This document shows, piece after piece, positions 34,269-62,847 of a stretch of DNA of 64,000 nt. The notes beneath the pieces are model-generated. The model saw only the letters and a list, made by a program, of their open reading frames with translations, did no database searches and was not told the origin of the DNA. The DNA is taken from contig NZ_QGHC01000002.1 in assembly GCF_003148905.1 (NCBI RefSeq), forward strand, positions 124,001 through 188,000, in the 5' to 3' direction. Numbering within the stretch: position 1 is the stretch's first letter; each line of letters starts with the position of its first letter. The stretch is from Fulvimonas soli (GTDB lineage Bacteria; Pseudomonadota; Gammaproteobacteria; Xanthomonadales; Rhodanobacteraceae). The translations under genes and the position numbers were made by a program.

Positions 34269-36125
<1,857 letters not shown>

Positions 36126-39091: not shown

Positions 39092-40087
39092 TCACCCGCC
39101 CGCCGGTCCCACGCCCGGCTCGCCGAAGTCCGGCCGGCCCCGCGCGTCCCAGCGGAAGGGCTGGATGCGCGGCGCGCGGCGCGCCGTGCACTTCCAGCCG
39201 GGGCCGCCGTTGGCGTGGTAGATGATCCAGTCCCTGCCGTCGGGCATCTTGAAGAAGCCGTTGTGGCCCGGCGCGTAGACGCCGGTCCTGGCCGAGCTGG
39301 CGAAGACCGGGCGCGGCGACTTGCGCCAGGACGCCGGGTCGAGCGGGTCGGCCCGCCCGTCCGCGCCGAGCAGGCCCAGCGCGTAGCCGTCGGACCAGCA
39401 CGCGCTGGCCGAGTAGGTGAGGAACATCTGGCCGTCCGGGCCGGCCAGGAACTCCGGGGCCTCGAGGATCTTGCGCCCGCCCTGCATCTCCCAGGCGTAG
39501 GTGGGCGCGGCGATGTCCACCTGCGGCCGCGCCAGCGTCCACGGGTTGGCCATCGGCGCGATCACCAGGTCGCTGTGGTCGCCCACGTAGGCCGAGTAGA
39601 CGAAGTAGCGCCGGCCGCGGTGCTCGAACACGGTGCCGTCGATGCCGGTGCGCTCGGTCCCGAGCATGCCCCTGTCGATCCAGCGGCCCCGCGTCGGGTC
39701 GGGCGAGGCGTTCTCCAGCACGAACACGTGGCGGTGCGCGTCGTCGTCGTGCGCGCGGTCGGCGGCGGTGTAGTACAGGTACCACTTGCCGTCGAGGTAG
39801 TGCAGCTCCGGCGCCCACACCGACGCCGAGTTCGGGCCGCGCGCGGGCGGGCGCCACACCACCACCGGCGGCGCCTCGGCCAGGCGCCGCATGTCGGCGG
39901 TCTTGCGCAGCTCGATGCGGTCGCCGGAGGTGCTGGTGTAGTAGTAGAAGCCGTCGCGCTGCGCCACCCACGGGTCCGGGCCGGAGGGCAGCAGCGGCGC
40001 CGCGTAGCGCTGCGCGCCGGCGGCGTGCCAGGGGCCGGCCAGCAGCAGGAACAGGAGCGCAAGGCGCCGGTGGCGCGTGTCGTTCAT
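39092..40087 (-). CDS. Secreted GH43 glycosidase (arabinan-active type)
   Basis: 331 residues with a signal peptide (about 1-25). Five-bladed propeller family 43: catalytic base Asp in SGPDPWVAQRDG, the pKa-modulating Asp in GIDGTVFEHRG and the acid Glu in LEAPEFLAGPDG. The pattern, with SVWAPELHYLDGKWYLYYTA, best fits exo-alpha-1,5-L-arabinofuranosidases (subfamily 26 type). It is the last gene of the leftward polysaccharide-degradation group, whose other members also point to arabinan. Subfamily is my judgement from motifs. Confidence 0.85.
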   Translation of the reverse strand: MNDTRHRRLALLFLLLAGPWHAAGAQRYAAPLLPSGPDPWVAQRDGFYYYTSTSGDRIELRKTADMRRLAEAPPVVVWRPPARGPNSASVWAPELHYLDGKWYLYYTAADRAHDDDAHRHVFVLENASPDPTRGRWIDRGMLGTERTGIDGTVFEHRGRRYFVYSAYVGDHSDLVIAPMANPWTLARPQVDIAAPTYAWEMQGGRKILEAPEFLAGPDGQMFLTYSASACWSDGYALGLLGADGRADPLDPASWRKSPRPVFASSARTGVYAPGHNGFFKMPDGRDWIIYHANGGPGWKCTARRAPRIQPFRWDARGRPDFGEPGVGPAGG

Positions 40088-40170
40088 CGTCGTCGTGCCC
40101 GTGGGCCGGCCGGCCGCGCCTTGCGTGCGGGGAGTCGTCCGCGCGGGGCACCGCGCGACGCGCGGCCGGC

Positions 40171-41733
40171 TCAATGCAGCGTCCACTGCTGCGTGCCCAG
40201 CCCGTTGTCGGTGTAGATCTGCAACTGCGTGCCGGCGGTGGTGGAGCCGGCCGGGTCGTCCAGGACCAGCGCGCCGGCGGCGCGGTTCTTCAGCTTGTAG
40301 CTGCCGTTGCCCAGGTCGATCACCTGCCAGCTCTGGTTGGCGTTGCCCACGCAGCCCCACAGCGTCACCGGATTGCCCGGCGCGGTGCTGCCGCCGGTGT
40401 TGTCCAGGCACAGGCCGGTGGCCTGGTTCTGCAGGCTGTAGTAGCCCTCGCCCTGCGCGTGGAAGGTCCAGCGCTGCACGCCGAGGCCGTTGCAGGTCCA
40501 CAGTTCCGCGCTGGTGCCGTTCTGGTTCGACCAGCCGGTGTCGTCCAGGCACAGCGCGGGCGCGTAGACGCTCTGCAGCGCGTAGGTGGCGCCGTCGGCC
40601 GGCAGCCGGTTCCACGGCTCGCTGGCGAAGTAGGTGATGCAGCCGCCATCGAGGTAGTCCGAGGCCAGCTCCAGGATGCCCGAGCCGTCCGCCGCGGGCA
40701 GCAGTGCCGAGGAGTAGTTGGGGCAGTAGTTGTCATATGCGGTGGGCACCTGCACCGGCGCGGCGATGGTGAACCAGTCGCCGCTGCCGTCGGCGTTGGT
40801 GTTGGCGAACAGCACCTTGCCGTTGGACGGCGAGACGCTGCCGCCGGCTTCGTACATCACCTGGCCGACCAGCAGGATCGCGCCGCCGGCGGACAGCGGC
40901 GTGGGGCTCCAGCGGTTGAGCGGCGCGTGCTCCAGGTACTGGCCGGTGGCGGTGTGCACCTTGGTGCCCATGTCGGCGGGGTCGCCGAAGTTCCAGCCGT
41001 CCACCGAGACGCGCGAGAACACCGTGCACGCCGCCGGCCCGCACAGCTCGTAGCTCATGAAGAAGTGCCCGTCGGGCAGCGGGCTCACCGTGATCATGCC
41101 CGGCCGGTCGGCCGGGATGGTGCTGCGCACGGTGTCGGCGCGGTCGCGCCAGATGGCGCCGTCGTAGCTGCGGATCTGCGCCAGCTTCTGGCTGCAGCAG
41201 GGGTCGGTCTCGTCGGACCAGAACATCACCAGCGCGCCGTCGTTGGCGACCTCGAACTCCGGCTCCCACAGGCCGTGGCTGGCGTCGCCGCCGAGCACGG
41301 GCGTGCCGTGGTAGCTCCAGGTCGCGCCCTGGTCGGTGCTGGTGTAGACCTCGATGGCCGGCGTGCCGCCGGAGAAGTAGGAGGCGGCGAACAGCAGCGT
41401 GCCCGCGGCCAGGCCGCCCACCGGCTGCGGCAGCTCGTACAGCGTGGCGCAGCAGCGCTCGCTGCTGCCGGCGGCGGTGGGCACGCTGCCGAGCCGCGTC
41501 CAGCTCGCGCCGTTGTCGGTGCTGCGGAAGATCACCCCGTTGGTGCTGGCGACGAGCTGGCCGTTGACCATGGCCGTGCCGTGCGCCAGCCGCACCACGC
41601 GCGGGTACAGCGTGCTTCCCTGCAACACGGTGCCGGTGGCCGCCTGCGCGGCGCCGTGCGCCAGGCCCAGCAGGCAGAGCGCGAGCGCCAGGCGGACGCG
41701 CCAGCGAGCGATGATCCGACCGAAGGCTTGCAT
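40171..41733 (-). CDS. GH93-like exo-arabinanase with C-terminal ricin-type lectin
   Basis: 520-residue exported protein (signal peptide about 1-32). Residues about 33-385 form a sialidase-like propeller with Asp-boxes STDNGASW and STDQGATW. Two glutamates in conserved motifs, E157 in GLWEPEF and E229 in FFMSYE, are 72 residues apart, the spacing I recall for the GH93 catalytic pair. Residues about 395-520 are a beta-trefoil (CBM13/ricin-B) with repeated LCLDDTG / LCLDNTG and QxW-type ends. Likely releases arabinobiose from alpha-1,5-arabinan; the lectin would hold galactose- or arabinose-rich chains. Confidence 0.75.
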   Translation of the reverse strand: MQAFGRIIARWRVRLALALCLLGLAHGAAQAATGTVLQGSTLYPRVVRLAHGTAMVNGQLVASTNGVIFRSTDNGASWTRLGSVPTAAGSSERCCATLYELPQPVGGLAAGTLLFAASYFSGGTPAIEVYTSTDQGATWSYHGTPVLGGDASHGLWEPEFEVANDGALVMFWSDETDPCCSQKLAQIRSYDGAIWRDRADTVRSTIPADRPGMITVSPLPDGHFFMSYELCGPAACTVFSRVSVDGWNFGDPADMGTKVHTATGQYLEHAPLNRWSPTPLSAGGAILLVGQVMYEAGGSVSPSNGKVLFANTNADGSGDWFTIAAPVQVPTAYDNYCPNYSSALLPAADGSGILELASDYLDGGCITYFASEPWNRLPADGATYALQSVYAPALCLDDTGWSNQNGTSAELWTCNGLGVQRWTFHAQGEGYYSLQNQATGLCLDNTGGSTAPGNPVTLWGCVGNANQSWQVIDLGNGSYKLKNRAAGALVLDDPAGSTTAGTQLQIYTDNGLGTQQWTLH

Positions 41734-41763
41734 GGTTCCTCCTTCGCCGCGCATGCGGCATGC

Positions 41764-41786
41764 GTGGGAGCGGCTTCCGGCCGCGA
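41764..41786. repeat. Single unit of family A repeat
   Basis: GTGGGAGCGGCTTCCGGCCG and following bases match one arm of the REP-type palindrome at 7613. It lies in the 86-base gap between the two propeller-enzyme genes. Confidence 0.75.
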
Positions 41787-41819
41787 CCCGGCGATCCATC
41801 CGCATGTCCGGTCCGCCGC

Positions 41820-43409
41820 TCAAGGCGGCCCGTCCGGCGTGAGCGGATCGAGTTGCAGATAGTCGACGTCGGCCGCATGGGCCGCGCCTTCCAGCGTCAC
41901 CTGGTGGTCGCCCGCGGCCAGGCGGCCGGAGGCGGTGGCGACATGCCAGCCGTCGCGCCCGGCGCGGTCGCTGGCGGGCCAGGCGGCGCCGTCGACATGG
42001 ATCGCCGGCTGCGCGGGCCGGAAGCCGAGGTCCTGCCAGCGCAGCGTCGCGCGGTACATGCCCGCCGCGGCGACGTGCAGCGCGAACGCGAGCTGCCCCT
42101 GCGGCGCCGAGGCCAGGCGGGCCTTCGCATGGTTGGACGCGGAGGGGTCGCCGATGCGCACCGCCGCGCGCCGCGCCGCGTCCTCCGCCTCGTAGCGGCC
42201 GAAGCGCGGCGCGGCCGTGGCGAACAGGATGCTGTTGCGGCGCTCGTCCTCCGGCTGCTGCGGCGAGGAGGACGAGGTGGCGTGCCACAGGCGGCCGTCC
42301 GGCAGCGCCAGCAGCGCCTGCGTCCAGCCGGCGTGGATGTTGCCGGTGAGCTTCTGCACCGGCGCGGGCATCTCCCACCACGGGCCGCGGCCGCCGTCGC
42401 CGTTCCAGTACAGGCTGCGCCCGGAAGGATCGCCGTCGCCGCCCGCGCGCTCGGCCAGCACGGCGAGCACGCCGCCGCCCGCGCCCGGCAGCCAGCGCAC
42501 CACGGGCGAGGCCGCCGGCCAGGCGCCCGCGGCGGTCTGCACCGGCGTGCCGCGGTCGGCCGGGTCGCCCCAGTCCAGCCCGTCGCGGCTGAACTTCACG
42601 TACACCTGGCCGTTGCGCGGGCCGTCGATGTCCTCGTAGCTCATCGCGTAGCGGCCGTCGGGCAGGCGCTCGACCACCGCCATGCCGGGCCGCTCCACGC
42701 CGCCGGGCACGGCCACGTCGACGGTCTCCGCGCCCCAGCTGCGGCCGCCGTCGGCGGACAGCCTGTGCGCCAGCAGCTGGTTGTAGCCCTCGGCCTTGTG
42801 CTGCTCGCTGGAGTAGTAGGCGACCAGGCGGCCGTCGTCGAGCCGGTGCACGTTGGGCTCCCACACGCCGTGGTTGTCCTTGTCCGAGGGATGGCCGCCG
42901 CCCTTGACGATGGAGCCGCGGTAGCGCCAGCTGCGGCCGCCGTCGGTGGAGGCGTACAGCTGCAGGTCCTGCCGGGCGAGATGCCCCTGCGCGTCGTTGC
43001 CGCCGGCGTTGGCGGCCAGCAGCAGGGTGCCCGCCGGCAGGTCGCCGCTCGCTCGCGCCAGCTCGGAGAGGTGCGGCTGCCAGCGCAGCTGCCAGCGCGG
43101 GTCGCCCGCGTGCGCCTGGTCGGTGACATTCAGCAGGAAATGCCAGTGCGCGCCGCCGTCGCGGCTCTCGTACAGCGGGATGCCGTCCATGCCCTCGCGC
43201 TCGAACACCAGCAGCAGGCGGCCGTCGTCCTCGCGCCGCGGCTGGTGTTCCAGGCGGACCGCCGAGACGTAGCCGATGCCGTCGGCGAGCACCTCGCCGC
43301 CGGCCTGCGCGGGCGCGGCGGCGGCGGCGGCCGGCAGCCAGGCGAGCGCGAGCAGGCACGGCAGCGTCCGCAGCATGGGCGGCCTGCGGCGGAAAGCGTC
43401 GGGGGTCAT
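41820..43409 (-). CDS. GH93-like exported propeller enzyme with carbohydrate-binding-like C-terminus
   Basis: 529 residues (529 from ATG 43409; ATG 43376 also possible), signal peptide ending near AAAAAPAQA. Paralogue of the previous gene: Asp-boxes SRDGGAHW, STDGGRSW and SADGGRSW; GVWEPN with E184 and YAMSYE with E259, 75 residues apart, aligned to the E157/E229 pair. Residues about 405-525 form a beta-sandwich beginning RYEAEDAARR and ending VDYLQLDPL, as in CBM6/35-type modules. Its start overlaps the SGNH hydrolase stop by four bases, so the two are co-translated. Confidence 0.75.
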   Translation of the reverse strand: MTPDAFRRRPPMLRTLPCLLALAWLPAAAAAAPAQAGGEVLADGIGYVSAVRLEHQPRREDDGRLLLVFEREGMDGIPLYESRDGGAHWHFLLNVTDQAHAGDPRWQLRWQPHLSELARASGDLPAGTLLLAANAGGNDAQGHLARQDLQLYASTDGGRSWRYRGSIVKGGGHPSDKDNHGVWEPNVHRLDDGRLVAYYSSEQHKAEGYNQLLAHRLSADGGRSWGAETVDVAVPGGVERPGMAVVERLPDGRYAMSYEDIDGPRNGQVYVKFSRDGLDWGDPADRGTPVQTAAGAWPAASPVVRWLPGAGGGVLAVLAERAGGDGDPSGRSLYWNGDGGRGPWWEMPAPVQKLTGNIHAGWTQALLALPDGRLWHATSSSSPQQPEDERRNSILFATAAPRFGRYEAEDAARRAAVRIGDPSASNHAKARLASAPQGQLAFALHVAAAGMYRATLRWQDLGFRPAQPAIHVDGAAWPASDRAGRDGWHVATASGRLAAGDHQVTLEGAAHAADVDYLQLDPLTPDGPP

Positions 43410-44674
43410 GGCGATGCTCCTCGGTGTGCGGAGGCCGGGGGACAGTCGAACAGCGCCAGCGGCACGGCCGCGGCCATCGCGCGGTAGCCGGCGTCGCTGG
43501 GATGCAGGCTGTCGCCGCTGTCGTAGTCCGCGCGCAGCCGCTCCGGGTGCGCGGGATCGCGCAGCGCGCGGTCGAAGTCGATCACGCCGTCGTAGCCGGC
43601 GGGCCCGCGGATCCAGGCGTTGAGTTGCCGGCGCGCCGCCTCGCCCGCGGCGGTGTAGGTCCGCGTGGTGCCCGCATAGGGCAGCACGGTGCCGCCGTAG
43701 ACGCGCACGCCCCGGGCGCGCGCGGCCGCGATGATCGCCCGCTGCGCCGCGATGACCGGCGCGGCCAGCGCCTGCGCGGACGGCGTGGCCGCGCCGCGCG
43801 CGTGCGCGGCGGCGGCGGCGGCCAGGCCGATGTCGTTGATGCCGCCCAGCACGATCAGGTAGCGCACCCCGGGTACGGCCAGCGCGTCGTGGGCGACGCG
43901 CTCGCGCATCGCCTCGCCCAGGCCGAAGTTGCCCTGCTCGGCCGCGACCTGGTTGGCATTGATGCCGGCGTTGAGCACCGCGCGCGGGCAGCGCGCGGCG
44001 GCGAGGCGGTCCTGCAGCGCGTCGGGCCAGGCGGCGAGCTGGCTGGCCTGGAAGCCGTTGGTGATGGAGTCGCCCAGCGCCACCACCGCGCTGGCCGGCG
44101 CGGTCGGCCGCACGTCGATGCGCGCCAGCCACGCCACGCCGGGCAGGCCCTCGGCGTCGGCCAGCGCGGGATCGCGGGTGTGGTCGCCCGCGCCGGAAAG
44201 GTATTGCGCGTTGCGCGGGTCGGGATGCCAGGTGCCGGCCACGCTGCGGCCGGCCACGTACAGGCTCACGCCGAGCACGTCGCCCGGCTGCACCGCCAGG
44301 TCCAGCGGATCGCTCTGCGCCTCCTGGCCCGGCGCCACCGTCACCGCCGTCCGGCCGCCGAAGCGCAGCGCGCGCAGGCTGTCCGGGCGCAGGTTGGCGC
44401 CCACGTCGCGCAGGCCCACCGAGGCGGCGTCGAAGGTGACCGGCGCGTCGCCGTAGCGGTTGTCCAGCACGATGCGCAGCTGCGCGCCGGCCACGCCGAC
44501 GCGGGCCAGCGCGCGCAGCGTCCGGTGCTCCACGACCGGCGCCGGCGCCGCGCGGAGCATCGCGGCGCTCCACGCGCCCACCCAGGGCGCGTCGGCCGCC
44601 GCCGCGGGCAGGACGGCGAGGGCGGCGGCCAGGGCAAGCGTCGCGCGGTGGCGAAGTGCGAGGCCTTTGGACAT
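43406..44674 (-). CDS. Exported SGNH/GDSL hydrolase
   Basis: 422-residue esterase-type protein with signal peptide (about 1-27), a beta-rich N-terminal domain (28-195) and an SGNH catalytic domain: ALGDSITNG (serine, block I), the NAGINANQ block, GGINDIGLA (block III Asn) and DSLHPSDAGYRAMA (Asp/His, block V). Such enzymes remove acetyl or other acyl groups from plant polysaccharides. It overlaps the start of the GH93-like gene and follows the receptor gene by 103 bases, so it belongs to the same uptake locus. Confidence 0.84.
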   Translation of the reverse strand: MSKGLALRHRATLALAAALAVLPAAAADAPWVGAWSAAMLRAAPAPVVEHRTLRALARVGVAGAQLRIVLDNRYGDAPVTFDAASVGLRDVGANLRPDSLRALRFGGRTAVTVAPGQEAQSDPLDLAVQPGDVLGVSLYVAGRSVAGTWHPDPRNAQYLSGAGDHTRDPALADAEGLPGVAWLARIDVRPTAPASAVVALGDSITNGFQASQLAAWPDALQDRLAAARCPRAVLNAGINANQVAAEQGNFGLGEAMRERVAHDALAVPGVRYLIVLGGINDIGLAAAAAAHARGAATPSAQALAAPVIAAQRAIIAAARARGVRVYGGTVLPYAGTTRTYTAAGEAARRQLNAWIRGPAGYDGVIDFDRALRDPAHPERLRADYDSGDSLHPSDAGYRAMAAAVPLALFDCPPASAHRGASP

Positions 44675-44777
44675 CGTTCGGGCTCCGATCGCAGGGACGG
44701 TCCGTTCCGCCGGCCGGCGGCGGCGCGAGCGGCGGCGGCGACGGCGGGGGGAGGGTTTCCGCCGTCGCCGCCGGCAC

Positions 44778-47579
44778 TCACATCTTGAAGCGCACGCCCA
44801 GGCCCACGGTGCGGTCCTGGTAGCGGATGTCGCGCGGGCGGGTGTCGCCGTCGCCCCAGAACTGGTGCAGGTCCGCGCCGAAGATGTTGGTCGCGTTGAG
44901 CACCACGGTACAGTTCGGGTTGACGTCGTAGCCCAGCGAGAAATCCACCTGGTTGGCCGGCTTGATCTCGTCGTTCACGCCGGCCACGGTGGGCTGGTTG
45001 AAGCCGTCGATGAAGCGGCTGCGGTAGTTGTAGGCCAGGCGCGCCGACCAGCCGTACTTCTCGTACATCAGCACGGCGTTGCCGTTGTTGCGCGACACGT
45101 TCTGCAGCGGCGACACCACCACCGGGCCGCCGATGTACTGCGGCGAGCGCGTGGAGCCCTCGATGTAGGTGTAGTTGAGCTGCACGCCCAAGCCGCTCCA
45201 TGCGCCGGGCAGGAAGTCGAAGAACTGCTGGTAGGCCACCTCGGCGCCGTCCAGGTGGCCCGAGCCCGCGCTCTGCGGCGAGTTGAGCTGGTACGGCTGG
45301 CCGCCGATGGTCACGTCGGTGACGTAGTTCTGGATGTAGCCGTCGATGTCGCGGTAGAACACGCCGCCGCTCAGGTAGCTGGCCGGCGCGAAGTACCATT
45401 CCAGCGAGGCGTCGTAGTTGTTGGAGCGGACCGGCTTCAGGTCCGGGTTGCCGCTGCTGGCGATGCCGGCGCGGTTGATCGTGCCGGGGTTGAGCGACAG
45501 CGACGGGTTGAGCTGGCCGAAGTCCGGGTAGGTGAGCGTCTTGGCCGCCACCAGGCGCAGCTGCAGGCTGTCGGTGAAGTGCAGGTTGAAGCTCAGGTTC
45601 GGCAGGTACACCGGCTTGCTGGTGCTGGCCGAGAGCGGCGTGTAGAGGTTGGTCGAGGCGTCGTAGGAGAACGCATCGAGGTTGCGCTTGACGCGCTCCA
45701 CGCGCATGCCCATCAGGCCGTCGAACGGCAGGCCGAACAGCTCGTTGCCGTAGGCGGCCTGGAAATAGCCGGCGTAGGACTTCTCGTCGATGTGGTAGTA
45801 GCGGCCCGGGTTCTCCGGCGCCAGGCCCGGCGGCAGGCCGTAGAGCTGGCGGATCGCGTCGGCGTTGTCGACCAGGAAGTCGTAGCAGCCGCTGAGCCAG
45901 GACACCGGGATCGCCGAGGTGGTCGGCTGGCGGCAGAAGTAGCCGTTCGGGAAGCGCGCGATCACCTGGTTGGCCGGGTTCGGGTTGAGCGAGATGTCGC
46001 CGGTGCCGCCGGGCGGCGGCGTGGAGATCTCCACGCTGCCGTGGTACTCGGCCTTGTGGTCGGAGTAGCGCAGGCCGAAGTCCAGGTACTGGAAGAAGCT
46101 GCCGTCGATGTCGTAGTTGCCGTCGCCGCGCCACGCGACCTGCTTGCCGCGCTGGTCGTTCCAGGTCTGGAACAGGCCGTTGAGGTAGTAGTTGGCCGGG
46201 TCGAGCTGCGGGTTGCCGGCCAGCGTCCAGTTCTGCTGGTCGCCGTGCGTGCCGCTCCACACCGTGGTGATCGGCGCCTTGAGGAAGGTGTCGACGATGA
46301 AGGTCTGCTCGTGGAACGAGGTGGAGTTGAACGACAGGTCGGTGGACAGGCGCAGGCGGTCGCCGTGCCACTTCACGCCGATCGAGTTCTGGATGTCGTG
46401 GCCCCATTCCTCGTGCGCCTGGGTGCTGGTGGCCGCGTAGGTGTTGCCGGTCCAGCTGCCGCTGGCGGCGTCGCAGATGGTCTGGCCGTAGTAGGGCGAG
46501 CCGGTCAGCTGGTTGGGGTAGCAGTGGCCGGTCACGGTGAGGTTGGTCGGGTCGACCGCGCCCACCGGGAAGCTGAAGTAGAACGGCTGGTTGTAGTCGT
46601 CCGAGTCCCAGTCGTAGAGGCCCTCGAGGTACACCTCGGTGCTGTCGTTGGGCTTCCACTGCAGCGCGTAGTTCATCTCCTCGCGCTGGCGGTTGCCGAT
46701 GTTGTAGTCGGCGCCCCAGCCGTTGGGCGCGGCGATGAGGTTGCCGTCGGCGGTGCGGATCGGGTCGCCCGAGGCGCCGGTGAGCAGCTTCGGGAAGTCG
46801 CCCCACACGGCGTTGTAGTCGTAGTGCTGGCCCATGAAGCCCATGTTGAACAGCGCGCCGATCTCGCCGATGCCGGTCTGCCAGCGGTCGCTGAGCAGCA
46901 CGCTCAGGTTCGGGTCGGTGTGGCCGCCGTACTTGCTGTGCGTGCCGGTGGCGGTCACCGCCGCCTTGGCGCCGTCGAAGTCGAACGGCCGGTACAGCTG
47001 CATGTCCACCAGGCCGGCGATGCCGCCGTCGGGCAGGCTGGCCTCGCTGGTCTTGTACACCTGCACCGTCTTCACCGCGGTGGCCGGCAGGTTCTGGAAG
47101 GCGAACGCGCGGCCCACGCCGCTGAAGATCTCGCGGCCGTTGAGGGTGGTGATGACGTTGGGCAGGCCGCGGATCACCACCGAGCTGGTCTCGCCCTGGA
47201 AGCCCTGCGCGATCTGCACGCCGGTGATGCGCTGCATGGCGTCGGCCACGCTGTTGTCGGGCAGCTTGCCGATGTCCTCGGCGACGATCGAGTCCACGAT
47301 CATGCGCGCGTCCTGCTTGATCGTCTGCGCGCTCTGCAGGCTCTCGCGCAGCGGCGTCACCACCACGCCGGAGAGGTTCACCGCGTTCTGCGCGGACGTC
47401 TCGGTGGCGGTGGCGGCCTTTTTCTTCGGCGCGGCCTGCGGCTGCGGCGTGGTGTCCTGCGGCGGGGCGTCCGCGGCGGACGGGGCGGCGGACGGCGGCG
47501 AATCGGCGGCGTGCGCGGCGGCGAGGCTCGCCGCGATCATCGTCGCGAGCAGGGTCAGATGGATGCGCTTGCGGTTCAT
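44778..47579 (-). CDS. TonB-dependent outer-membrane receptor
   Basis: 933 residues. Signal peptide (about 1-25), a Pro/Ala/Lys-rich linker, then a TonB-box-like VNLSGVVVTPLRES, plug domain (about 75-215) with SVADAMQRITGVQI and VVIRGLPNVITTLNGRE, and a 22-strand barrel ending RTVGLGVRFKM. Sequence pattern is that of the Xanthomonas/Caulobacter receptors in carbohydrate-utilisation loci, which take up oligosaccharides, rather than siderophore receptors; no Fur box is upstream. It is the uptake port for the products of the surrounding hydrolases. Confidence 0.9.
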   Translation of the reverse strand: MNRKRIHLTLLATMIAASLAAAHAADSPPSAAPSAADAPPQDTTPQPQAAPKKKAATATETSAQNAVNLSGVVVTPLRESLQSAQTIKQDARMIVDSIVAEDIGKLPDNSVADAMQRITGVQIAQGFQGETSSVVIRGLPNVITTLNGREIFSGVGRAFAFQNLPATAVKTVQVYKTSEASLPDGGIAGLVDMQLYRPFDFDGAKAAVTATGTHSKYGGHTDPNLSVLLSDRWQTGIGEIGALFNMGFMGQHYDYNAVWGDFPKLLTGASGDPIRTADGNLIAAPNGWGADYNIGNRQREEMNYALQWKPNDSTEVYLEGLYDWDSDDYNQPFYFSFPVGAVDPTNLTVTGHCYPNQLTGSPYYGQTICDAASGSWTGNTYAATSTQAHEEWGHDIQNSIGVKWHGDRLRLSTDLSFNSTSFHEQTFIVDTFLKAPITTVWSGTHGDQQNWTLAGNPQLDPANYYLNGLFQTWNDQRGKQVAWRGDGNYDIDGSFFQYLDFGLRYSDHKAEYHGSVEISTPPPGGTGDISLNPNPANQVIARFPNGYFCRQPTTSAIPVSWLSGCYDFLVDNADAIRQLYGLPPGLAPENPGRYYHIDEKSYAGYFQAAYGNELFGLPFDGLMGMRVERVKRNLDAFSYDASTNLYTPLSASTSKPVYLPNLSFNLHFTDSLQLRLVAAKTLTYPDFGQLNPSLSLNPGTINRAGIASSGNPDLKPVRSNNYDASLEWYFAPASYLSGGVFYRDIDGYIQNYVTDVTIGGQPYQLNSPQSAGSGHLDGAEVAYQQFFDFLPGAWSGLGVQLNYTYIEGSTRSPQYIGGPVVVSPLQNVSRNNGNAVLMYEKYGWSARLAYNYRSRFIDGFNQPTVAGVNDEIKPANQVDFSLGYDVNPNCTVVLNATNIFGADLHQFWGDGDTRPRDIRYQDRTVGLGVRFKM

Positions 47580-47688
47580 GGATGCTGCCTCCCCTACGAG
47601 GTGGTGGTGCGCCGGCTCGTGCCGGCGGCATTCGTTGTGCTGGTTGTCGCCGCCCGGCCGCGTCTCGCGCGCGGTCCGGGCGGGCCGG

Positions 47689-48870
47689 TCAGTGCTTGCC
47701 GTCGGCGGCGGCCGGGTAGCTCGCCGCCTCGGCGGGCACCTGGCCGCGCGGCGCGCGCGAAAGGGCGCGCAGGATGTCCGCCTCGCGCTGGCGGTACGGC
47801 GTGCCGTCGGCATGCAGCAGGTCGTGGAACCACAGCGTGGGCGGCTGCAGGGTGTACGGGCGCTGCCACGAATCCCACGGCAGCGTGGTCTGCGTGCGGC
47901 CTTCCACGAAGCCCCAGTTCACCATGCCCACGTCGAGCTTCTTCGCCAGCGGCAGCACGCCGTCGATGGTGGAGCCGGCGCCGCGCGCCATGTACTCGGT
48001 GCAGATCAGCGGGCGGCCGTAGCCTCGCAGCTGCTCCACGCGCGCGGCGAACTCCTCCGGCCAGCCGTAGTTGTGGAAGCTGATCACGTCGGACTGCTCG
48101 ACCTGCGTGCGCTCCACCGCGTTGAGCCTGGCCGGGTCGGACCAGTCCGCGTCGTGCCACAGGCCGCTGGTGAGCGGCTGCGTGGGCGAGGCGCTGCGCG
48201 CCCAGGCGAACACCTGCGGCAGCAGCTTCGCCACCAGCGCGGTCTTGTCCTTCGGCTCCCGCGCGTCGTAGTCGCCGCCGCCGGGGTTGTCCGGCTCGTT
48301 CCACACGTCCCAGGCGAGGATGCGCGGGTCCTTGGCGAAACTGCCCACGACGTCCTTCACGTAGCGCTCCAGCCGCGGGTACTGGCCGGGGTCGGCCAGC
48401 GCCACGCCGGGGCTCTGCACCCAGCCGGAGTTGTGCACGCCGGGGATCGGCGGGTGCTGCGGGCCGAGCCTGGGCTCCGGGTCCCAGCACGAGTCGAACA
48501 GCACGAGGATCGGCTTGATGCCGTGCCGGCTGGCGATGGCGAGGAACTGGTCGATGCGCTTCTTGAAGCCCGCCGCGTCCTGCTGCCACAGCAGGTCGTG
48601 CAGGAACACGCGCATGGTGTTCATGCCCAGCCGCTGCGCCCAGCCCAGCTCGCGGTCGATGCGCGCCGGGTCGAACGTGTCCGCCTGCCACATCTCCAGC
48701 TCGTTGACGGCATTGGCCGGCACGTAGTTGCTGCCCAGCGGCCACGCCTGCCTCGCGTACCAGGCCCTGGCCTCGGCGGGCGTCCAGCGCGCCGCGGCGT
48801 CGTGCGCCGGCGCCGCCGCGGCGAGGCTCGCCGCCAGTCCGAAGGCCATCGCCCGTAGTGCGTGCTTCAT
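47689..48870 (-). CDS. Exported GH5-like (clan A) glycoside hydrolase
   Basis: 393 residues with signal peptide (about 1-22). A (beta/alpha)8 enzyme of clan GH-A: the acid/base glutamate lies in AWDVWNEPDNPGG and the nucleophile glutamate in ICTEYMARG, with HNYGWPEE between. The N-terminal RAWYARQAWPLGSNYVPANAVNELEMW is typical of bacterial cellulase-family proteins annotated as 1,4-beta-xylanases, but specificity is not known. Given the locus, cleavage of a galactan or arabinoxylan backbone is possible. It lies between the receptor and the mutarotase. Confidence 0.82.
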   Translation of the reverse strand: MKHALRAMAFGLAASLAAAAPAHDAAARWTPAEARAWYARQAWPLGSNYVPANAVNELEMWQADTFDPARIDRELGWAQRLGMNTMRVFLHDLLWQQDAAGFKKRIDQFLAIASRHGIKPILVLFDSCWDPEPRLGPQHPPIPGVHNSGWVQSPGVALADPGQYPRLERYVKDVVGSFAKDPRILAWDVWNEPDNPGGGDYDAREPKDKTALVAKLLPQVFAWARSASPTQPLTSGLWHDADWSDPARLNAVERTQVEQSDVISFHNYGWPEEFAARVEQLRGYGRPLICTEYMARGAGSTIDGVLPLAKKLDVGMVNWGFVEGRTQTTLPWDSWQRPYTLQPPTLWFHDLLHADGTPYRQREADILRALSRAPRGQVPAEAASYPAAADGKH

Positions 48871-48990
48871 CGGTCTCCCCTTGCGGATCGCGGGCTCGCG
48901 CCCGCGCTGTGTCGGTCCGGCGCCGCGCGCGGGGCAAAACGCCCCTGGGGGCGCCGCCTGCGTGGCGTCCCTGCCGCGGAACGTGCTCGG

Positions 48991-50139
48991 TCAGCGCGCG
49001 CCGCGCGCCGGCCCGGTGGTGAACTCGTAAACGATCAGGTTGCGGTAGACATGGCCGGGCTCCAGTCGCGCCGAGCCGAACGCGGGCCGGTTCGGCGTGT
49101 CCGGGTAGAGCTGCGGTTCCAGCACGAAGGCGTCGCCCTGGCGGTACACGTGCCCGCCGGTGCCCACCGTCGTGCCGTCGAGGAAGTTGCCGGAGTAGAA
49201 CTGCAGGCCCGGCTGCGCGGACTTGAGCGTCAGCACGCGGCCGGACGCCGGGTCCTCCACGCGCGCGACCACGCGCGGCGCGGCGGCCTCGGCGCGGCTG
49301 ATCACCCAGTTGTGGTCGTAGCCGCGCCCGTTGAGCAGCTGCTGGTCGGCGACGCGGATGTCGCGGCCGATCGGCTTGCCCCGGCGGAAGTCGAACGGCG
49401 TGCCGTCCACCTTGCGGATCTCGCCGGTGGGGATGGCGGTCGCGTCCACCGGCAGGTAGGCGTCGGCGGGGATGGTCAGGCGCTGCCCCATCACGCTGCC
49501 CGAGCCCTCGCCGGCGAGGTTCCAGTAGGCGTGGTTGCTCAGGTTGACGATGGTGGGCTTGTCGGTGGTGGCGCGGTAGTCGATCGACAGCCGGTTCGCA
49601 TCGTCGAGCGTGTAGGTCGCCGTGACGGCCAGCCGGCCGGGATAGCCCATCTCGCCGTCGGGGCTCGCGTAGCTCAGCGTGACGCTGGCCTTGCCGGCGT
49701 CGTGCCTCACCTCGCCGATGGTCCACAGCGCCTTGTCGAAGCCGCGGGTGCCGCCGTGCAGCGAGTTCGGGCCGTCGTTCACCGGCACCTGGTAGGCCTT
49801 GCCGTCGAGCGTGAAGCGCCCGCCGGCGATGCGGTTGGCGTAGCGCCCCACGGTGGCGCCGAAGTACTGCGGCTTCTTCAGGTAGCCGTCCAGCGTGGCG
49901 TAGCCGAGCACGACGTTGGCGGCCTTGCCGTCGCGGCCGGGCACGCTCAGCGACTGCAGGCTGGCGCCCAGCGCCAGCACGCGCGCGGTCATGCCGTGGC
50001 CGTTGTCCAGCACGACCGCCTCCACGCGGGTGCCGTCGGGCAGGCGGCCGAACGTCTCGCGCCGCGCGTCGGCGGCCTGCGCGGCCGACGCGAGGGCCGC
50101 CAGGCCGAGTATCGAACCGATCAGTGCTGCGCGCCGCAT
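48991..50139 (-). CDS. galM: Exported aldose 1-epimerase (galactose mutarotase)
   Basis: 382 residues; unlike cytoplasmic GalM it begins with a signal peptide (RRAALIGSILGLAALASAAQA), so it works in the periplasm. The catalytic histidine motifs GPNSLHGG and NLSNHAYWNL and the general-base glutamate in VLEPQLYPDTPNRPAF are intact. It interconverts alpha and beta anomers of released galactose (or arabinose) before transport and oxidation. It is the first leftward gene opposite the regulator, with a -10-like TACAAT inside the operator at 50188-50207. Confidence 0.92.
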   Translation of the reverse strand: MRRAALIGSILGLAALASAAQAADARRETFGRLPDGTRVEAVVLDNGHGMTARVLALGASLQSLSVPGRDGKAANVVLGYATLDGYLKKPQYFGATVGRYANRIAGGRFTLDGKAYQVPVNDGPNSLHGGTRGFDKALWTIGEVRHDAGKASVTLSYASPDGEMGYPGRLAVTATYTLDDANRLSIDYRATTDKPTIVNLSNHAYWNLAGEGSGSVMGQRLTIPADAYLPVDATAIPTGEIRKVDGTPFDFRRGKPIGRDIRVADQQLLNGRGYDHNWVISRAEAAAPRVVARVEDPASGRVLTLKSAQPGLQFYSGNFLDGTTVGTGGHVYRQGDAFVLEPQLYPDTPNRPAFGSARLEPGHVYRNLIVYEFTTGPARGAR

Positions 50140-50187
50140 GCTCTCGGATGCCCTCTGCGTGACCGCGGGATGAAGGCATCCAAGCAC

Positions 50188-50207
50188 ATTGTATGATTAT
50201 CGTGCAA
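50188..50207. promoter_or_regulatory. 19-bp palindromic operator in front of galM
   Basis: TTGTATGATTATCGTGCAA (50189-50207) is a near-perfect palindrome of the form TTGyAyGAT-w-ATCrTrCAA. On the minus strand it contains TACAAT (50193-50188), a -10 element for galM. The half-site TTGTATGA recurs at 50463, next to the regulator promoter. Probable site for the FadR-type repressor. Confidence 0.65.
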
Positions 50208-50428
50208 GTGTTTCCGGGTGCCCGGAAAACCCTTTGTGCGGCGCGCCACGAGGCCTTGCGATGCCCGCCGCGCGGCGCAAAGCGCGGCACGATGCGCGGC
50301 ATGCGCCGGCGGCGAAGGATCGACGGGAGGCGAACGCGCGCCGACATTCCGCAATGCGTCATCGACGGGCGCGCCGCGGGCGGCGCATCATCGGCGCGTC
50401 GTGCGGCGGAAAGCGCGCGCGGCGCGGC

Positions 50429-50473
50429 TTGGCAGGACGCGCGCAAAGTGCTTATAGTCCGTTTGTATGACAA
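50429..50473 (+). promoter_or_regulatory. Regulator-operon promoter with overlapping TTGTATGACAA
   Basis: TTGGCA (50429-50434), 18-base spacer, TATAGT (50453-50458); predicted start near 50465. The inverted repeat TTGTATGACAA (50463-50473) covers the start point and shares TTGTATGA with the galM operator, so the regulator would control its own operon. Confidence 0.65.
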
Positions 50474-50523
50474 TTGGCCCGCGGGCCAACCTTCATCGCC
50501 GGGACCAGGGGTCAGAGGATCTC

Positions 50524-51249
50524 ATGAGGAAGCCGATCGCAGTCCGCAGCCTGTACGGGCACGTCATGCACGAGCTCGGCCGGCGCATCGTCAGCGGCAA
50601 GGTGAAGCCGGGCGAGGTGCTGCCGCGCGAGGAGACCCTGGCCGAAAGCCTCCAGGTCAGCCGCACCGCGCTGCGCGAGGCGCTCAAGGTGCTCTCCGCC
50701 AAGGGCCTGATCGAGTCGCGCACCGGCGTGGGCGCGCGCGTGCTGGAGGAGCGCTACTGGAACCAGCTCGACGCCGACGTACTGGCCTGGCGCTGCGCCT
50801 CGATGCCCACCGACGACTTCGTCGACAAGCTGGTGGAGATGCGCGAGGTGATCGAGCCGGCCGCCGCCGCCGCCGCCGCGCGCCGGCGCACCGCCGCGCA
50901 GCTGGCCGCCATCGACGCCGCCTACCGGGCGATGGACGCGGCGCAGACGCTGGAGGCGTGGACCGAGGCCGACCTGCAGTTCCACGACGCGGTGCTGCAC
51001 GCCACCGGCAACGAGCTGCTGCAGTCGCTGTTCTCGGTGGTGGAGACCGCGCTGGGCACCTTCTTCACCCTGTCCGCGCGCAACGCCAGCAACTTCAAGT
51101 ACTCGCTGCCGCACCACCAGAAGGTGCTGGAGGCGATCCGCCGCCGGCAGCCGGAAGTGGCGCGCAAGGCGATGCAGGCGATGATCGCCGACTCGCAGGC
51201 CAACCTGCAGCGCAGCCGTAGCCGCGCGCGCCGGAAGGCGACGGCATGA
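50524..51249 (+). CDS. FadR-subfamily GntR transcriptional regulator (DgoR-like)
   Basis: 241 residues: N-terminal winged helix (about 10-75; LGRRIVSGKVKPGEVLPREETLAESLQVSRTALREALKVLSAKGL) and the all-helical FCD effector domain with the metal-binding histidines in DLQFHDAVLHATGN and YSLPHHQKVLEAI. It heads the galactonate operon, overlapping dgoK by four bases, the same place DgoR has in E. coli. The effector is likely galactonate or a related acid. The start is ATG 50524; ATG 50467 sits inside the operator and lacks a ribosome site. Confidence 0.88.
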   Translation: MRKPIAVRSLYGHVMHELGRRIVSGKVKPGEVLPREETLAESLQVSRTALREALKVLSAKGLIESRTGVGARVLEERYWNQLDADVLAWRCASMPTDDFVDKLVEMREVIEPAAAAAAARRRTAAQLAAIDAAYRAMDAAQTLEAWTEADLQFHDAVLHATGNELLQSLFSVVETALGTFFTLSARNASNFKYSLPHHQKVLEAIRRRQPEVARKAMQAMIADSQANLQRSRSRARRKATA

Positions 51250-52172
51250 CGGCAGCGCTGATCGGCCTGGACTGGGGCAGCACGCAGCTGCGCGCGTACC
51301 GCTACGGCGAACGCGGCGCGGTGGAGGCCGTGCGGACCCTGCCCTGCGGCGTGCGCCAGCTGCCCGCGGGCGGCTTCGCGCAGGCGTTCGCGCAGGCGCT
51401 CGAGGGCTGGCCGGCAGCGCCGGTGATCGCCTGCGGCATGGTCGGCAGCCGCAACGGCTGGCGCGAGACGCCCTACCTGGACACGCCCGCGGACCTCGAC
51501 CGCCTCGCCGCGGCGCTGACGCCGCTGGCCGCGCCGGACGGCCGCGCGGTGCATCTGGTGCCGGGCCTGCGTGATCCCGCGCGGCCCGACGTGATGCGCG
51601 GCGAGGAGACCCAGGTGGCCGGCGCGCTCGCGCTGGAGCCGCCGATGGCGCGGCGCGCGCGCCTGCTGCTGCCCGGCACGCACAGCAAGTGGGTGGAGGT
51701 GCGCGACGGCGCGGTCGTCGGCTTCGCCACCATGATGACCGGCGAGCTGTACGCGCTGCTGCGCCAGCACTCGATCCTCGGCGCGGCGCTGCCCGCGCCG
51801 GTCCCCGACGGGGACGCCTTCCGGCGCGGCGTGCGCGCCGCGCGCGACAGCGGCGCCGCCGGCATGCTCTCGCGGCTGTTCTCCGCGCGCGCGCTGCTGC
51901 TCGACGGCGCGCTCGCGCCCTCCTCCGTGGCGGACTACCTGTCCGGCCTGCTGCTCGGCGAGGAGCTGCGCGCCGCGCTCGCCGCCGGCTGGGCGGCGCC
52001 GGGCGAGCCGGTGCTGGTGGTCGGCGACGAAGCGCTGTGCGAGCGCTACCTGCGCGCCGCCGAGGCGTTCGGCATCGGCTTGCGCCGCGCGCCCGGCGAC
52101 GCCGCCGCGCACGGCCTCTGGCGCATCGCCGCCGCGGCCGCCCTGGTCCCCGGCCACGCGACGGCGGCATGA
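51246..52172 (+). CDS. dgoK: 2-dehydro-3-deoxygalactonokinase
   Basis: Phosphorylates 2-keto-3-deoxygalactonate with ATP at C6. 308 residues; GLDWGSTQLRAYRY at the N-terminus is the ASKHA-type phosphate-binding motif, LLPGTHSKWVEVRDG the DgoK signature and MTGELYALLRQHSIL the substrate region. ATGA overlaps at both ends join it to the regulator and to dgoA, so translation is coupled. Confidence 0.94.
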   Translation: MTAALIGLDWGSTQLRAYRYGERGAVEAVRTLPCGVRQLPAGGFAQAFAQALEGWPAAPVIACGMVGSRNGWRETPYLDTPADLDRLAAALTPLAAPDGRAVHLVPGLRDPARPDVMRGEETQVAGALALEPPMARRARLLLPGTHSKWVEVRDGAVVGFATMMTGELYALLRQHSILGAALPAPVPDGDAFRRGVRAARDSGAAGMLSRLFSARALLLDGALAPSSVADYLSGLLLGEELRAALAAGWAAPGEPVLVVGDEALCERYLRAAEAFGIGLRRAPGDAAAHGLWRIAAAAALVPGHATAA

Positions 52173-52816
52173 CTTCGATGGACGCCTGGCTCGCCCCGCT
52201 CCCGCTGGTCGCCATCCTGCGCGGGCTGCGCCCCGGGGAGGCGCTCGACGTCGGCCGCGCGCTGCTCGACGCGGGCTTCCGCGTGCTGGAGGTGCCGCTC
52301 AACTCGCCCGAGCCGTGCGAGAGCATCCGCCGCCTCGCCGACGCCTTCGGCGACCGCGCGCTGGTCGGCGCGGGCACCGTGCTCGACCCCGCGCGCGTGC
52401 GCGAGGTCGCCGCGGCGGGCGGCCGCCTGGTGGTGATGCCGCACGCGGACGCCGGGGTGATCCGCGCGGCCAAGCAGGCCGGGCTGTACTGCGTGCCGGG
52501 CGTCGCCACGCCCACCGAGGCGTTCGCCGCGCTCGGCGCCGGCGCGGACGCGCTCAAGCTGTTCCCGGCCGAGCAGGCCAGCCCCGCCGTGCTCCGGGCC
52601 TGGCGCGCCGTGCTGCCCGCCGGCACGCGCGTGCTGCCGGTCGGCGGCATCACCCCCGACGGCATGGCGCCCTGGCTCGCGGCCGGCGCCGCCGGCTTCG
52701 GCATCGGCTCCTCGCTCTACGCCCCCGGCCGCGCGGCCGGCGACGTCGCCGCGCGCGCGCGCGCCTTCGCCGACGCCTGGCGGCGCCACCTCGCATCGAA
52801 AGGAACCGCTCCATGA
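52169..52816 (+). CDS. dgoA: 2-dehydro-3-deoxy-6-phosphogalactonate aldolase
   Basis: Splits KDPGal to pyruvate and glyceraldehyde 3-phosphate. 215-residue class I aldolase: Schiff-base lysine K130 in GADALKLFPAEQ and proton-transfer glutamate E41 in RVLEVPLNSPEP; PVGGITPDGMAPW binds phosphate. The KDPGal form is favoured over KDPG (Eda) by the dgoK and dgoD neighbours and by LEVPLNSP. Overlaps both neighbours by four bases. Confidence 0.93.
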   Translation: MTSMDAWLAPLPLVAILRGLRPGEALDVGRALLDAGFRVLEVPLNSPEPCESIRRLADAFGDRALVGAGTVLDPARVREVAAAGGRLVVMPHADAGVIRAAKQAGLYCVPGVATPTEAFAALGAGADALKLFPAEQASPAVLRAWRAVLPAGTRVLPVGGITPDGMAPWLAAGAAGFGIGSSLYAPGRAAGDVAARARAFADAWRRHLASKGTAP

Positions 52817-53961: not shown

Positions 53962-53966
53962 GCACG

Positions 53967-55669: not shown

Positions 55670-55701
55670 AGGCGCTCGACACCACCCGCGGGGGAGTTTC
55701 C

Positions 55702-59907: not shown

Positions 59908-60040
59908 GCCATCGCCTCCTCTGCCGGAACGGGAGCGCGGCGGCGCGGGCGGGTCGGCCCGACGTCCGTGTCGATGCGCGGCGCGGGCGCGGCCGCCGGT
60001 GCCGTGCCGCCGCGCGGGCGCGGGCACGGCCTGCGGAAAG

Positions 60041-62833: not shown

Positions 62834-62847
62834 CGGCGTTCTCCGTG

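Follow-up and report, generated by a model that had tools for sequence, protein, structure and literature searches.

The divergent gene cluster of Fulvimonas soli described here is probably a TonB-type carbohydrate utilization locus whose substrates are α-1,5-arabinan and, from the side chains of pectin, short arabino-oligosaccharides. The analyzed window comprises 64,000 nt (NZ_QGHC01000002.1, positions 124,001–188,000) of this member of the Rhodanobacteraceae (Rhodanobacter-Dyella group). Two arms diverge from one common region (Table 1). The leftward arm holds seven genes in the order GalM, GH5-like enzyme (GH5L), TonB receptor, SGNH esterase, propellers P2 and P1, and GH43; besides the TonB receptor, the six others carry export signals recognized by eye. 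In the rightward arm, a regulator and a sugar porter frame five oxidation enzymes. The recognizable hydrolases of the locus belong to GH93 and GH43, both arabinan-directed. No endo-arabinanase and no recognized xylanase, galactanase or galactosidase were found in the locus, GH5L being without a family. An earlier reading of this DNA made from the sequence alone had proposed a leftward arabinan group with a TonB receptor, and the genes are as claimed. The span given then (39092–50139) is exact, from the GH43 stop to the start of the epimerase gene, but incomplete: it omitted the divergent galactonate-type operon, with which the locus is about 1.6 times as long.

Table 1 Features of the locus, in window coordinates
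Feature	Coordinates	Strand	Basis
GH43, exported, probable exo-α-1,5-L-arabinofuranosidase type, 331 aa	39092..40087	-	Pfam GH43 193.8 bits; PDB 9nxj 6.5e-64, 3akf 5.5e-60
P1, GH93 propeller (Tyr type, Y340) with C-terminal ricin-type β-trefoil, 520 aa	40171..41733	-	PDB 3a71 3.9e-21; E157/E229; signal peptide by eye
P2, GH93 propeller (Trp type, W351) with CBM35-like C-terminal domain, 518 aa	41820..43376	-	PDB 3a71 1.4e-30; E173/E248; signal peptide by eye
SGNH esterase, two-domain, accessory, 422 aa	43406..44674	-	Pfam Lipase_GDSL_2 94.9 bits; PDB 7tog 1.8e-57
TonB-dependent receptor, 933 aa	44778..47579	-	TIGR01782 627.1 bits (cut-off 310)
GH5L, GH5-like exported TIM-barrel enzyme, 393 aa	47689..48870	-	Sub-threshold to GH10 and GH5; putative catalytic E192 (NEP), E292
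Aldose 1-epimerase, GalM type, exported	48991..50139	-	Pfam 306.7 bits; PRK11055 323.4 bits (cut-off 240)
Divergent control region, two TTGTATGA sites (50189, 50463), putative GntR operators	50140..50523		Only copies in 64 kb
GntR/FCD regulator	50524..51249	+	Pfam GntR and FCD
DgoK, 2-keto-3-deoxygalactonokinase	51246..52172	+	Pfam DGOK 317.8 bits; no NCBIfam match at 1e-10
2-Dehydro-3-deoxy-6-phosphogalactonate aldolase	52169..52816	+	PRK09140 290.9 bits (cut-off 207)
DgoD, galactonate dehydratase (enolase superfamily)	52813..53961	+	PRK14017 684.8 bits (cut-off 311); PDB 3rr1 1.5e-159
SDR aldose 1-dehydrogenase	53967..54734	+	PDB 4lvu 3e-103, 7wwx 8.5e-76
SMP-30-type sugar lactonase	54731..55669	+	Pfam SGL 237.4 bits
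MFS sugar porter	55702..57093	+	TIGR00879 441 bits (cut-off 237.8)

P1 and P2 are the only GH93 genes of the genome. Pfam recognizes BNR repeats alone in their propeller parts, as would be expected of sialidases (GH33) or non-catalytic BNR proteins. In single-sequence searches, however, the match of P1 to the GH93 structure 3a71 compares with 8.6e-4 for the best other propeller, and P2 had no sialidase match at E up to 1. A profile built on both types retrieved 3a71 at 3.3e-55 and 2w5n at 3.7e-47, with the best sialidase (2.5e-7) about 48 orders of magnitude behind. The AF2 model of P2 (pLDDT 84.2) aligned to 3a71 with a Z of 41.5 (2.2 Å over 327 residues), the next non-GH93 chain reaching 29.7 and sialidases at most 28.4, 13 Z units lower; families absent from the fold lists were given no evidential weight. 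Both GH93 glutamates are also invariant, contrary to a sialidase or BNR identity, which we consider highly improbable and dropped on the profile E-values and the fold comparison. Neither propeller had GH33 or a non-catalytic BNR family as its best match, the outcome set beforehand as a refutation of the GH93 assignment; that assignment is supported for both.

The glutamates E157 (GLWEP) and E229 (MSYE) of P1 lie 72 residues apart, and E173 and E248 of P2 75 residues apart. The spacing reported earlier is real; the P2 pair had been given as E184/E259, the right residues numbered from an ATG that lies 11 codons before the start used here. In the alignments of P1 (n=9) and P2 (n=20) and in 80/80 GH93 catalytic domains both glutamates are invariant, and hence the pair is not due to chance. 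The 80-domain alignment leaves out L115 and three partial second matches (L073–L075). Only L051 was retained from the first 20 relative stretches, most others repeating named loci. P1 matches all three Arb93A positions Glu170, Glu242 and Tyr337 (E157, E229 and Y340). The predicted ricin-type lectin on one propeller was confirmed in P1 (residues ~383–519, Pfam RicinB_lectin_2 108.3 bits). The proposed CBM-like domain on the other (P2, ~390–511) gave no Pfam match in P2 itself, but among the 20 aligned P2 sequences 8 matched CBM_35 (best E 7.2e-7, limit 0.1).

In a phylogenetic reconstruction with the 43 of 80 rows left after thinning at 80% identity, P1 and P2 fell into separate, deep GH93 clades. 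The Tyr and Trp groups lie on opposite sides of one branch (100/100; in 100% of 200 bootstrap trees), which rules out a recent tandem duplication, and the local paralogous pair proposed earlier was not borne out. The residues E170, E242 and Y337 are listed as catalytic for fungal GH93 in a 2025 review (PMC11813348). The position of Tyr337, one of eight type-specific columns separating the two types, is Trp in 31/31 rows of the P2 clade (W351 in P2). Since P2 has no equivalent of Tyr337, a residue outside the family's sequence definition, it is classed on sequence grounds as a Trp-type variant clade and not as a standard GH93 member, and because of this substitution the two propellers probably do not share the same specificity or mode. 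The Trp column and a C-terminal module unlike that of P1 would also suit P2 as a GH93-fold enzyme for another furanoside, with P1 alone a true GH93 exo-arabinanase. We regard this as unlikely: single-sequence searches place P2 nearer than P1 to the fungal enzymes, its two glutamates and RPGM motif are retained, and its model has the high Z to 3a71.

The fungal enzymes Abnx (3a71/3a72) and Arb93A (2w5n/2ydt) share the sequence family and both catalytic glutamates with P1 and P2, the predicted propeller fold with P2 and the Tyr337 position with P1. In contrast, they are chains of 355–367 aa, whereas P1 and P2 are bacterial and carry an added ricin-type lectin or CBM35-like module, and their Tyr337 is replaced by Trp in P2. 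Neither the literature nor the listings examined gave an activity for any bacterial GH93, and the product of P1 and P2 is therefore inferred from the fungal enzymes.

The GH43 had been described as of arabinan type, which probably holds for an exo-1,5-arabinofuranosidase (the type we take to be GH43 subfamily 26) but not for an endo-arabinanase: PDB matches to endo-arabinanases were far weaker and NCBIfam AbnA scored 24.2 bits (cut-off 480). Of its nearest solved chains, the top two (9nxj, 9nxg) are not named by activity, and 3k1u in third place is labelled a β-xylosidase. The SaAraf43A-type enzymes 3akf (annotated arabinofuranosidase) and 5m8e are among the nearest relatives by sequence, with the β-xylosidase-named 3k1u and 5m8b scoring alike; the 3akf chain has 468 aa compared to 331 aa here. 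The SGNH esterase resembles the two-domain FjoAcXE-like acetyl xylan esterases (7tog, 7toj; E 1.8e-57 and 8.8e-45), but its motif reads GDSI instead of their GNSI signature (PMC9105624). A homolog was present in 4 of 20 relative stretches, and the TonB receptor in all 20. 'GH5-like' is a fair label for GH5L, which however reaches the Pfam cut-off of neither GH5 (20.8 vs 23.5 bits) nor GH10 (21.4 vs 22.1 bits); E192 and E292 are invariant in 16 aligned sequences. Family assignment by profile and a poor model (pLDDT 61) was abandoned, as generic TIM barrels, β-mannanases and a GH164 mannosidase among the first rows were not interpretable. The epimerase remained below the stricter galM_Leloir equivalog (335.8, cut-off 397.65). 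The arabinan cluster of Bifidobacterium longum subsp. suis encodes an exo-1,5-arabinofuranosidase GH43, the type that is probable for the locus, but unlike the locus also two endo-GH43, a GH51, an ara operon and ABC transport; GH93 is not mentioned in the text examined (PMC10970622).

In the 64-kb window, TTGTATGA occurs twice, both times in the control region, with 0.08 copies expected. The motif ATTGTATGAT was present in 22 of 24 control regions of this kind, which include several same-genome locus pairs and are not independent. TTGTATGA was absent around the other GH43 genes (L129, L130) and in the 12 kb around the GH35 gene (L131) of the genome, all named by eye. Translation of the regulator probably starts at 50524; an alternative ATG at 50467 falls within the second TTGTATGA site. 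The operon was counted into the locus because of this common control region with two putative operators and because P1 stands at the operon end in Dyella: eight of the named loci, seven from Dyella records and one from a Lysobacterales bin, have P1 after the porter on the same strand within 260 bases. DgoD, DgoK and the KDPGal aldolase together present the De Ley-Doudoroff gene set; sugar dehydrogenase and lactonase genes stand in the same operon, as for that D-galactose pathway. Unlike that pathway, the operon shares its control region with an arabinan-degrading arm, and the best curated model of the SDR is D-xylose dehydrogenase (299.6 bits, below the cut-off of 400). By family the catabolic arm is galactose-type, which speaks against a pure arabinan reading and fits arabinogalactan at least as well.

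GH93 was detected in 43 of 233 Rhodanobacteraceae genomes, after removal of a partial match (G033, 22.6 bits) from 44, with relatives in Acidobacteriota, Actinomycetota, Bacillota and other groups; the supposed rarity of bacterial GH93 was not borne out. A class-wide search of 369 genomes, which may miss some as at most 3 candidates were scored in each, found real GH93 only in the window's own; five other matches were discarded as fragments of 19–24 bits. Joint conservation of the arms was indicated by their gene order, compared in 20 relative stretches and in 66 named loci. GH5L was found in 40/43 GH93-positive and 4/190 GH93-negative family genomes, and DgoD (E up to 1e-120) in 42/43 and 77/190, the latter count speaking against the arabinan reading. 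Within 20 kb of GH93 on the same contig lay GH5L in 39 and DgoD in 35 of the 43 genomes. In the other eight, DgoD was on another contig (G071, G083, G097, G145, G198), 3.4 Mb (G102) or 1.5 Mb (G120) away on the same contig, or not found at this threshold (G165). DgoD was absent from 34 of the 66 named loci, mostly of other phyla or incomplete. These gaps also weigh against the arabinan reading, as do the lack of an endo-arabinanase, the Tyr337 replacement in P2 and the poor GH5L model.

The fate of the released arabinose bears directly on the substrate. Arabinose isomerase (AraA) was found neither in this genome nor in the 233 family genomes; this genome also has no galactokinase, no IlvD/EDD proteins beyond the housekeeping IlvD and Edd, and a single, housekeeping DHDPS-family protein. 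The galactonate operon is thus left as the only candidate arabinose route within the families searched. L-Arabinose and D-galactose have the same C2–C4 configuration, which suggests a dual-use operon oxidizing both sugars alike, DgoD dehydrating L-arabinonate and the 2-keto-3-deoxypentonate being cleaved, phosphorylated or not. Besides the missing routes, this proposal draws on the SDR, related to 7wwx (8.5e-76), presumably the Herbaspirillum L-arabinose dehydrogenase. For the Herbaspirillum SDR enzyme, PMC6336799 gives a kcat/Km for arabinose only 2.9-fold above galactose. As read from sequence, a Sphingomonas GH93 locus adjoins an IlvD/EDD-type dehydratase instead. On the other hand, no enzyme of the DgoD (enolase) type active on L-arabinonate was found in the literature examined, the kinase step would give the unusual glycolaldehyde phosphate, and another arabinose route, such as route III or an aldolase route, may exist outside the families searched. 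We therefore hold dual use to be tentative and rather unlikely. More doubtful still is the full combination, in which the operon as an arabinose and galactose pathway would replace the missing isomerase and IlvD/DHDPS routes and be fed by two ancient GH93 clades, the Trp type working without the tyrosine.

Alternatively, galactose is the target of an arabinogalactan locus whose arabinan enzymes strip side chains, the arabinose being wasted or consumed by an unrecognized route. DgoD and the aldolase exceed galactonate-specific cut-offs, DgoK falls within its Pfam family, the epimerase clears the cut-off of the GalM subfamily model but misses that of the stricter equivalog, and the missing galactokinase is in line with galactose oxidation by the operon. 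In Dyella sp. OK004, GH35-like and GH27-like genes and a second similar GntR (named by reading the sequences) adjoin the locus, and F. soli has one GH35 elsewhere (L131). This alternative is a real possibility but falls short of probable: the locus has no recognized galactanase or galactosidase, its GH93 and GH43 are arabinan-directed, and TTGTATGA is missing around that GH35.

For arabinan as the substrate, P1 and P2, each anchored on the polymer through a lectin or CBM of its own, would act as retaining enzymes with two catalytic glutamates and split arabinobiose off the non-reducing ends of the chains, arabinobiose being the GH93 product according to PMC11813348. The GH43 would convert arabino-oligosaccharides to arabinose, while the SGNH esterase and GH5L may take off decorations or linkages that block the exo-enzymes. 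Oligosaccharides would be imported by the TonB receptor and monosaccharides by the MFS porter. The mutarotase may supply the SDR dehydrogenase, and the galactonate-type enzymes could then handle the lactone. Both arms are most likely repressed by the GntR protein, acting through the two putative sites.

The six GH93 exo-arabinanases tabulated in the 2025 review are all fungal (PMC11813348). The locus supplies bacterial members in their genetic context, with two clades within one host, and the natural Tyr-to-Trp active-site variant offers a test of the role of the tyrosine. GH5L is a candidate new arabinan- or arabinogalactan-active enzyme, given its distribution with GH93. An arabinan arm and a galactose-type catabolic arm stand under one control region in hosts without a recognized arabinose pathway among the families searched, and the fate of arabinose in Rhodanobacteraceae thereby becomes directly testable. 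A galactonate operon usually ascribed to galactose appears here wired to arabinan degradation built on two bacterial versions of GH93.

The genome of Fulvimonas soli (3.77 Mb, 44 contigs, completeness 100) contains a real, conserved, multi-gene arabinan locus. All seven leftward genes proposed by the sequence-only reading were recovered, namely those for the aldose 1-epimerase GalM, the GH5-like exported TIM-barrel enzyme GH5L, a TonB receptor, an SGNH esterase, the exported GH93 propellers P2 and P1, and a GH43 enzyme. The left border of the locus lies at ~39.0 kb, and an RpoD-like RNA polymerase sigma-70 protein (named by eye) is encoded to the left of it. The group adjoining the other side is likely to be an independent set for alpha-glucans or alpha-xylosides.

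Features of the arabinan locus and its surroundings (window coordinates)
Feature	Position	Strand
RpoD-like sigma-70 protein	34269-36125	
Leftward arm, arabinan genes	39092-50139	-
P1	40171..41733	-
P2	41820..43376	-
GH5L	47689..48870	-
TTGTATGA, two copies	50189 and 50463	
Rightward galactonate-type arm, divergent to the leftward arm, in order: GntR/FCD regulator, DgoK, KDPGal aldolase, DgoD, SDR aldose dehydrogenase, SMP-30 lactonase, MFS sugar porter	about 50524 to 57093	+
Adjoining leftward group: GH31 (DUF5110 type), AraC regulator, GH13, putative esterase	57133-63666	

Pfam recognized only BNR repeats in the propeller parts of P1 and P2. In searches of solved structures, P1 and P2 matched the Penicillium exo-arabinanase 3a71 (3.9e-21 and 1.4e-30, respectively), and a profile built from both types favoured GH93 (3a71, 3.3e-55; Fusarium Arb93A, 3.7e-47) over sialidases (2.5e-7 or weaker). 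The structural overlay, run for P2, concurs with this affiliation: an AlphaFold2 model (20 sequences, mean pLDDT 84.2, pTM 0.84) gave Z 41.4 with Arb93A and Z 41.5 with 3a71, on which 327 residues superimposed at 2.2 A, the next chain, of unknown function, reaching Z 29.7 and sialidases at most 28.4. The ricin-type lectin ascribed to P1 is present as a beta-trefoil at about 383-519. The CBM-like domain ascribed to P2 held in part, as 8 of 20 alignment members matched CBM_35 (E<=0.1) but the window's own protein did not; its C-terminal domain is all-beta in the predicted model. No further GH93 genes were found in the host genome, and by P2 the nearest named relatives are Frateuria and Rhodanobacter (75-76% identity).

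Among solved structures, the GH43 protein matched the exo-alpha-1,5-arabinofuranosidases 3akf (5.5e-60), which we take to be SaAraf43A, and 5m8e (9.8e-55), with similar scores from 9nxj and 9nxg, which carry no activity name, and from 3k1u and 5m8b, named beta-xylosidase. Enzymes of the SaAraf43A type convert small alpha-1,5-linked arabino-oligosaccharides to L-arabinose, according to PMC10970622. An endo-arabinanase reading was rejected (24.2 bits against a model cut-off of 480). By sequence, the SGNH protein is similar to acetyl xylan esterases of the two-domain kind (7tog, 1.8e-57), but has GDSI where these enzymes have GNSI (PMC9105624); just 4 of the 20 relative stretches carry a homologue. 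GH5L scored below the GH5 and GH10 Pfam cut-offs. Its residues E192, part of a WNEP motif, and E292 are shared by all 16 aligned sequences, and two such glutamates are expected in a retaining TIM-barrel hydrolase of clan GH-A.

A 2025 review (PMC11813348) gives E170, E242 and Y337 as the GH93 catalytic residues and arabinobiose, released from the non-reducing end, as the product; all six enzymes in its table are fungal. The legend there assigns these residues to Penicillium 3A72, but the spacings of 72 and 95 match Arb93A instead, in whose chain the three residues carry the indices 156, 228 and 323 in our alignments (a constant offset of 14) and whose PDB title names E242. They align with E157, E229 and Y340 of P1 and with E173, E248 and W351 of P2. 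Both glutamates were conserved in all 80 GH93 catalytic domains compared (78 bacterial, 2 fungal fragments). The third column held Tyr in 48, Trp in 31 and a gap in one, the Arb93A fragment, which ends before it. After thinning, 43 rows were used to build a tree, in which a branch with 100/100 support separated all 13 Trp rows from all 29 Tyr rows. P1 grouped with Acidobacteriota, among them Granulicella, and with a bin that bears the label Eremiobacteraeota, and P2 with other Xanthomonadales, an Acidobacteriaceae bin and a Gemmatimonadetes bin. Since P1 and P2 fall in separate clades, the proposed local paralogous tandem pair has to be given up: judging from the tree, they are ancient relatives joined in one locus and no local duplication. 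From its grouping in this unrooted tree, P1 was plausibly acquired laterally from Acidobacteriota.

Other arrangements of GH93 genes were also seen. A Clostridiales bin (L099, 7805-11389) has three consecutive GH93-type genes, a true tandem array, and one relative (L051 8782-10959, genome G206) encodes a longer, divergent Tyr-type protein of 725 aa with a long tree branch in place of P1 and P2. In the P2 homologues of four genomes (L021, L028 and the matches in G102 and G142), the matched frame is interrupted by a single stop; they represent either decayed genes or matches overrunning the gene end.

The TonB receptor, GH5L and GalM were each found in 20/20 relative stretches and DgoD in 15. 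Three of the five stretches lacking it (L032, L042 and L044) are cut within the operon and L038 starts at a contig end; in L050, GntR is present and the galactonate genes are not beside it. The Pinirhizobacter locus L070, from the same genome as L050, likewise has the leftward arm and GntR with no adjacent galactonate genes. The 66 named loci span many phyla; 34 of them lack DgoD, and the 32 that have it all come from Rhodanobacter, Frateuria, Dyella, Pseudoxanthomonas or one Lysobacterales bin. Rearrangements of the two arms were seen: P1 directly follows the porter in eight named loci (seven Dyella records and the Lysobacterales bin; L091-L094, L097, L098, L100 and L117), and GH43 does so in three Rhodanobacter loci (L056, L058 and L061). 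In Pseudoxanthomonas (L073-L075, L078 and L079), DgoK is distant (35-40% identity) and located apart; in L079 the lactonase is followed by a sodium/solute symporter-like gene (by eye).

A survey of 233 family genomes yielded 43 with GH93 after one dubious match was left out, the P2 type in 38, the P1 type in 22 and both in 19. DgoD (E<=1e-120) occurred in 42/43 GH93-positive versus 77/190 negative genomes (Fisher p 2e-13) and GH5L in 40/43 versus 4/190 (p 9e-37), values that overstate independence because the genomes are related. DgoD lay within 20 kb of GH93 in 35 of the 43 and GH5L in 39. Gilvimarinus loci L085 and L110 encode a TonB receptor, two P1-like GH93 proteins, a GH43 match (26% identity), GalM and GH5L (48-49%), and the sequence around them lacks the galactonate operon; the GH93-GH5L association thus extends to another gammaproteobacterial family. 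In acidobacterial L104, L107 and L113, no more than 10 kb separates the GH93 genes from homologues of GH5L (61-63% identity), and the GH93 genes adjoin one for a large protein of outer membrane type whose start is carboxypeptidase-regulatory-like (named by eye).

Both copies of TTGTATGA in the 64 kb window, where a first-order model expects 0.08, lie between GalM and the regulator. Of 24 divergent regions, which include several pairs from one genome, 22 contain ATTGTATGAT. Because the ATG at 50467 is overlapped by the second TTGTATGA copy, 50524 is the likelier start of the regulator. We infer that the GntR regulator binds these sites as putative operators. In Dyella sp. OK004 (L041), a second GntR gene, 82% identical to that of the window, adjoins the locus.

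In the rightward arm, the KDPGal aldolase (290.9 bits, cut-off 207) and DgoD (684.8, cut-off 311) scored above their models' cut-offs. L-arabinose isomerase is absent from the host genome and from all 233 family genomes, and galactokinase is absent from the host genome. The IlvD/EDD proteins there, read by eye, are limited to IlvD and Edd, and the DHDPS family has a single member; the isomerase and IlvD/DHDPS routes for arabinose are therefore unrecognisable in this genome. The operon may serve either galactose out of arabinogalactan, as the GH35-like and GH27-like genes adjoining the locus in Dyella sp. OK004 (L041 2054-5288; read from sequence) would suggest, or both arabinose and galactose. 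Arabinose is favoured by the Sphingomonas GH93 locus L114, which holds homologues of the lactonase and epimerase and adjoins genes for a Gfo/Idh protein and a dehydratase of IlvD/EDD type (both read from sequence). Sequence comparison relates the SDR to 7wwx (8.5e-76), presumably the Herbaspirillum L-arabinose 1-dehydrogenase. The Herbaspirillum SDR L-arabinose dehydrogenase is reported to prefer arabinose only 2.9-fold over galactose (PMC6336799), and other dehydrogenases and an IlvD-type dehydratase are reported to take the arabinose and galactose series alike (PMC9795676).

Bacterial GH93 genes are known from annotation, e.g. in Saccharopolyspora and a termite gut metagenome; the literature searched, which covers few subscription papers, yielded no GH93 of bacterial origin that had been studied biochemically. 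The GH93 pair had been expected to be new or little described, which stands in that the locus is not described in the literature examined and fails in that the locus is ordinary for part of the family. Its distinguishing features are two GH93 clades, one with an altered active-site residue, and the joining of arabinan degradation to a galactose-type catabolic arm.
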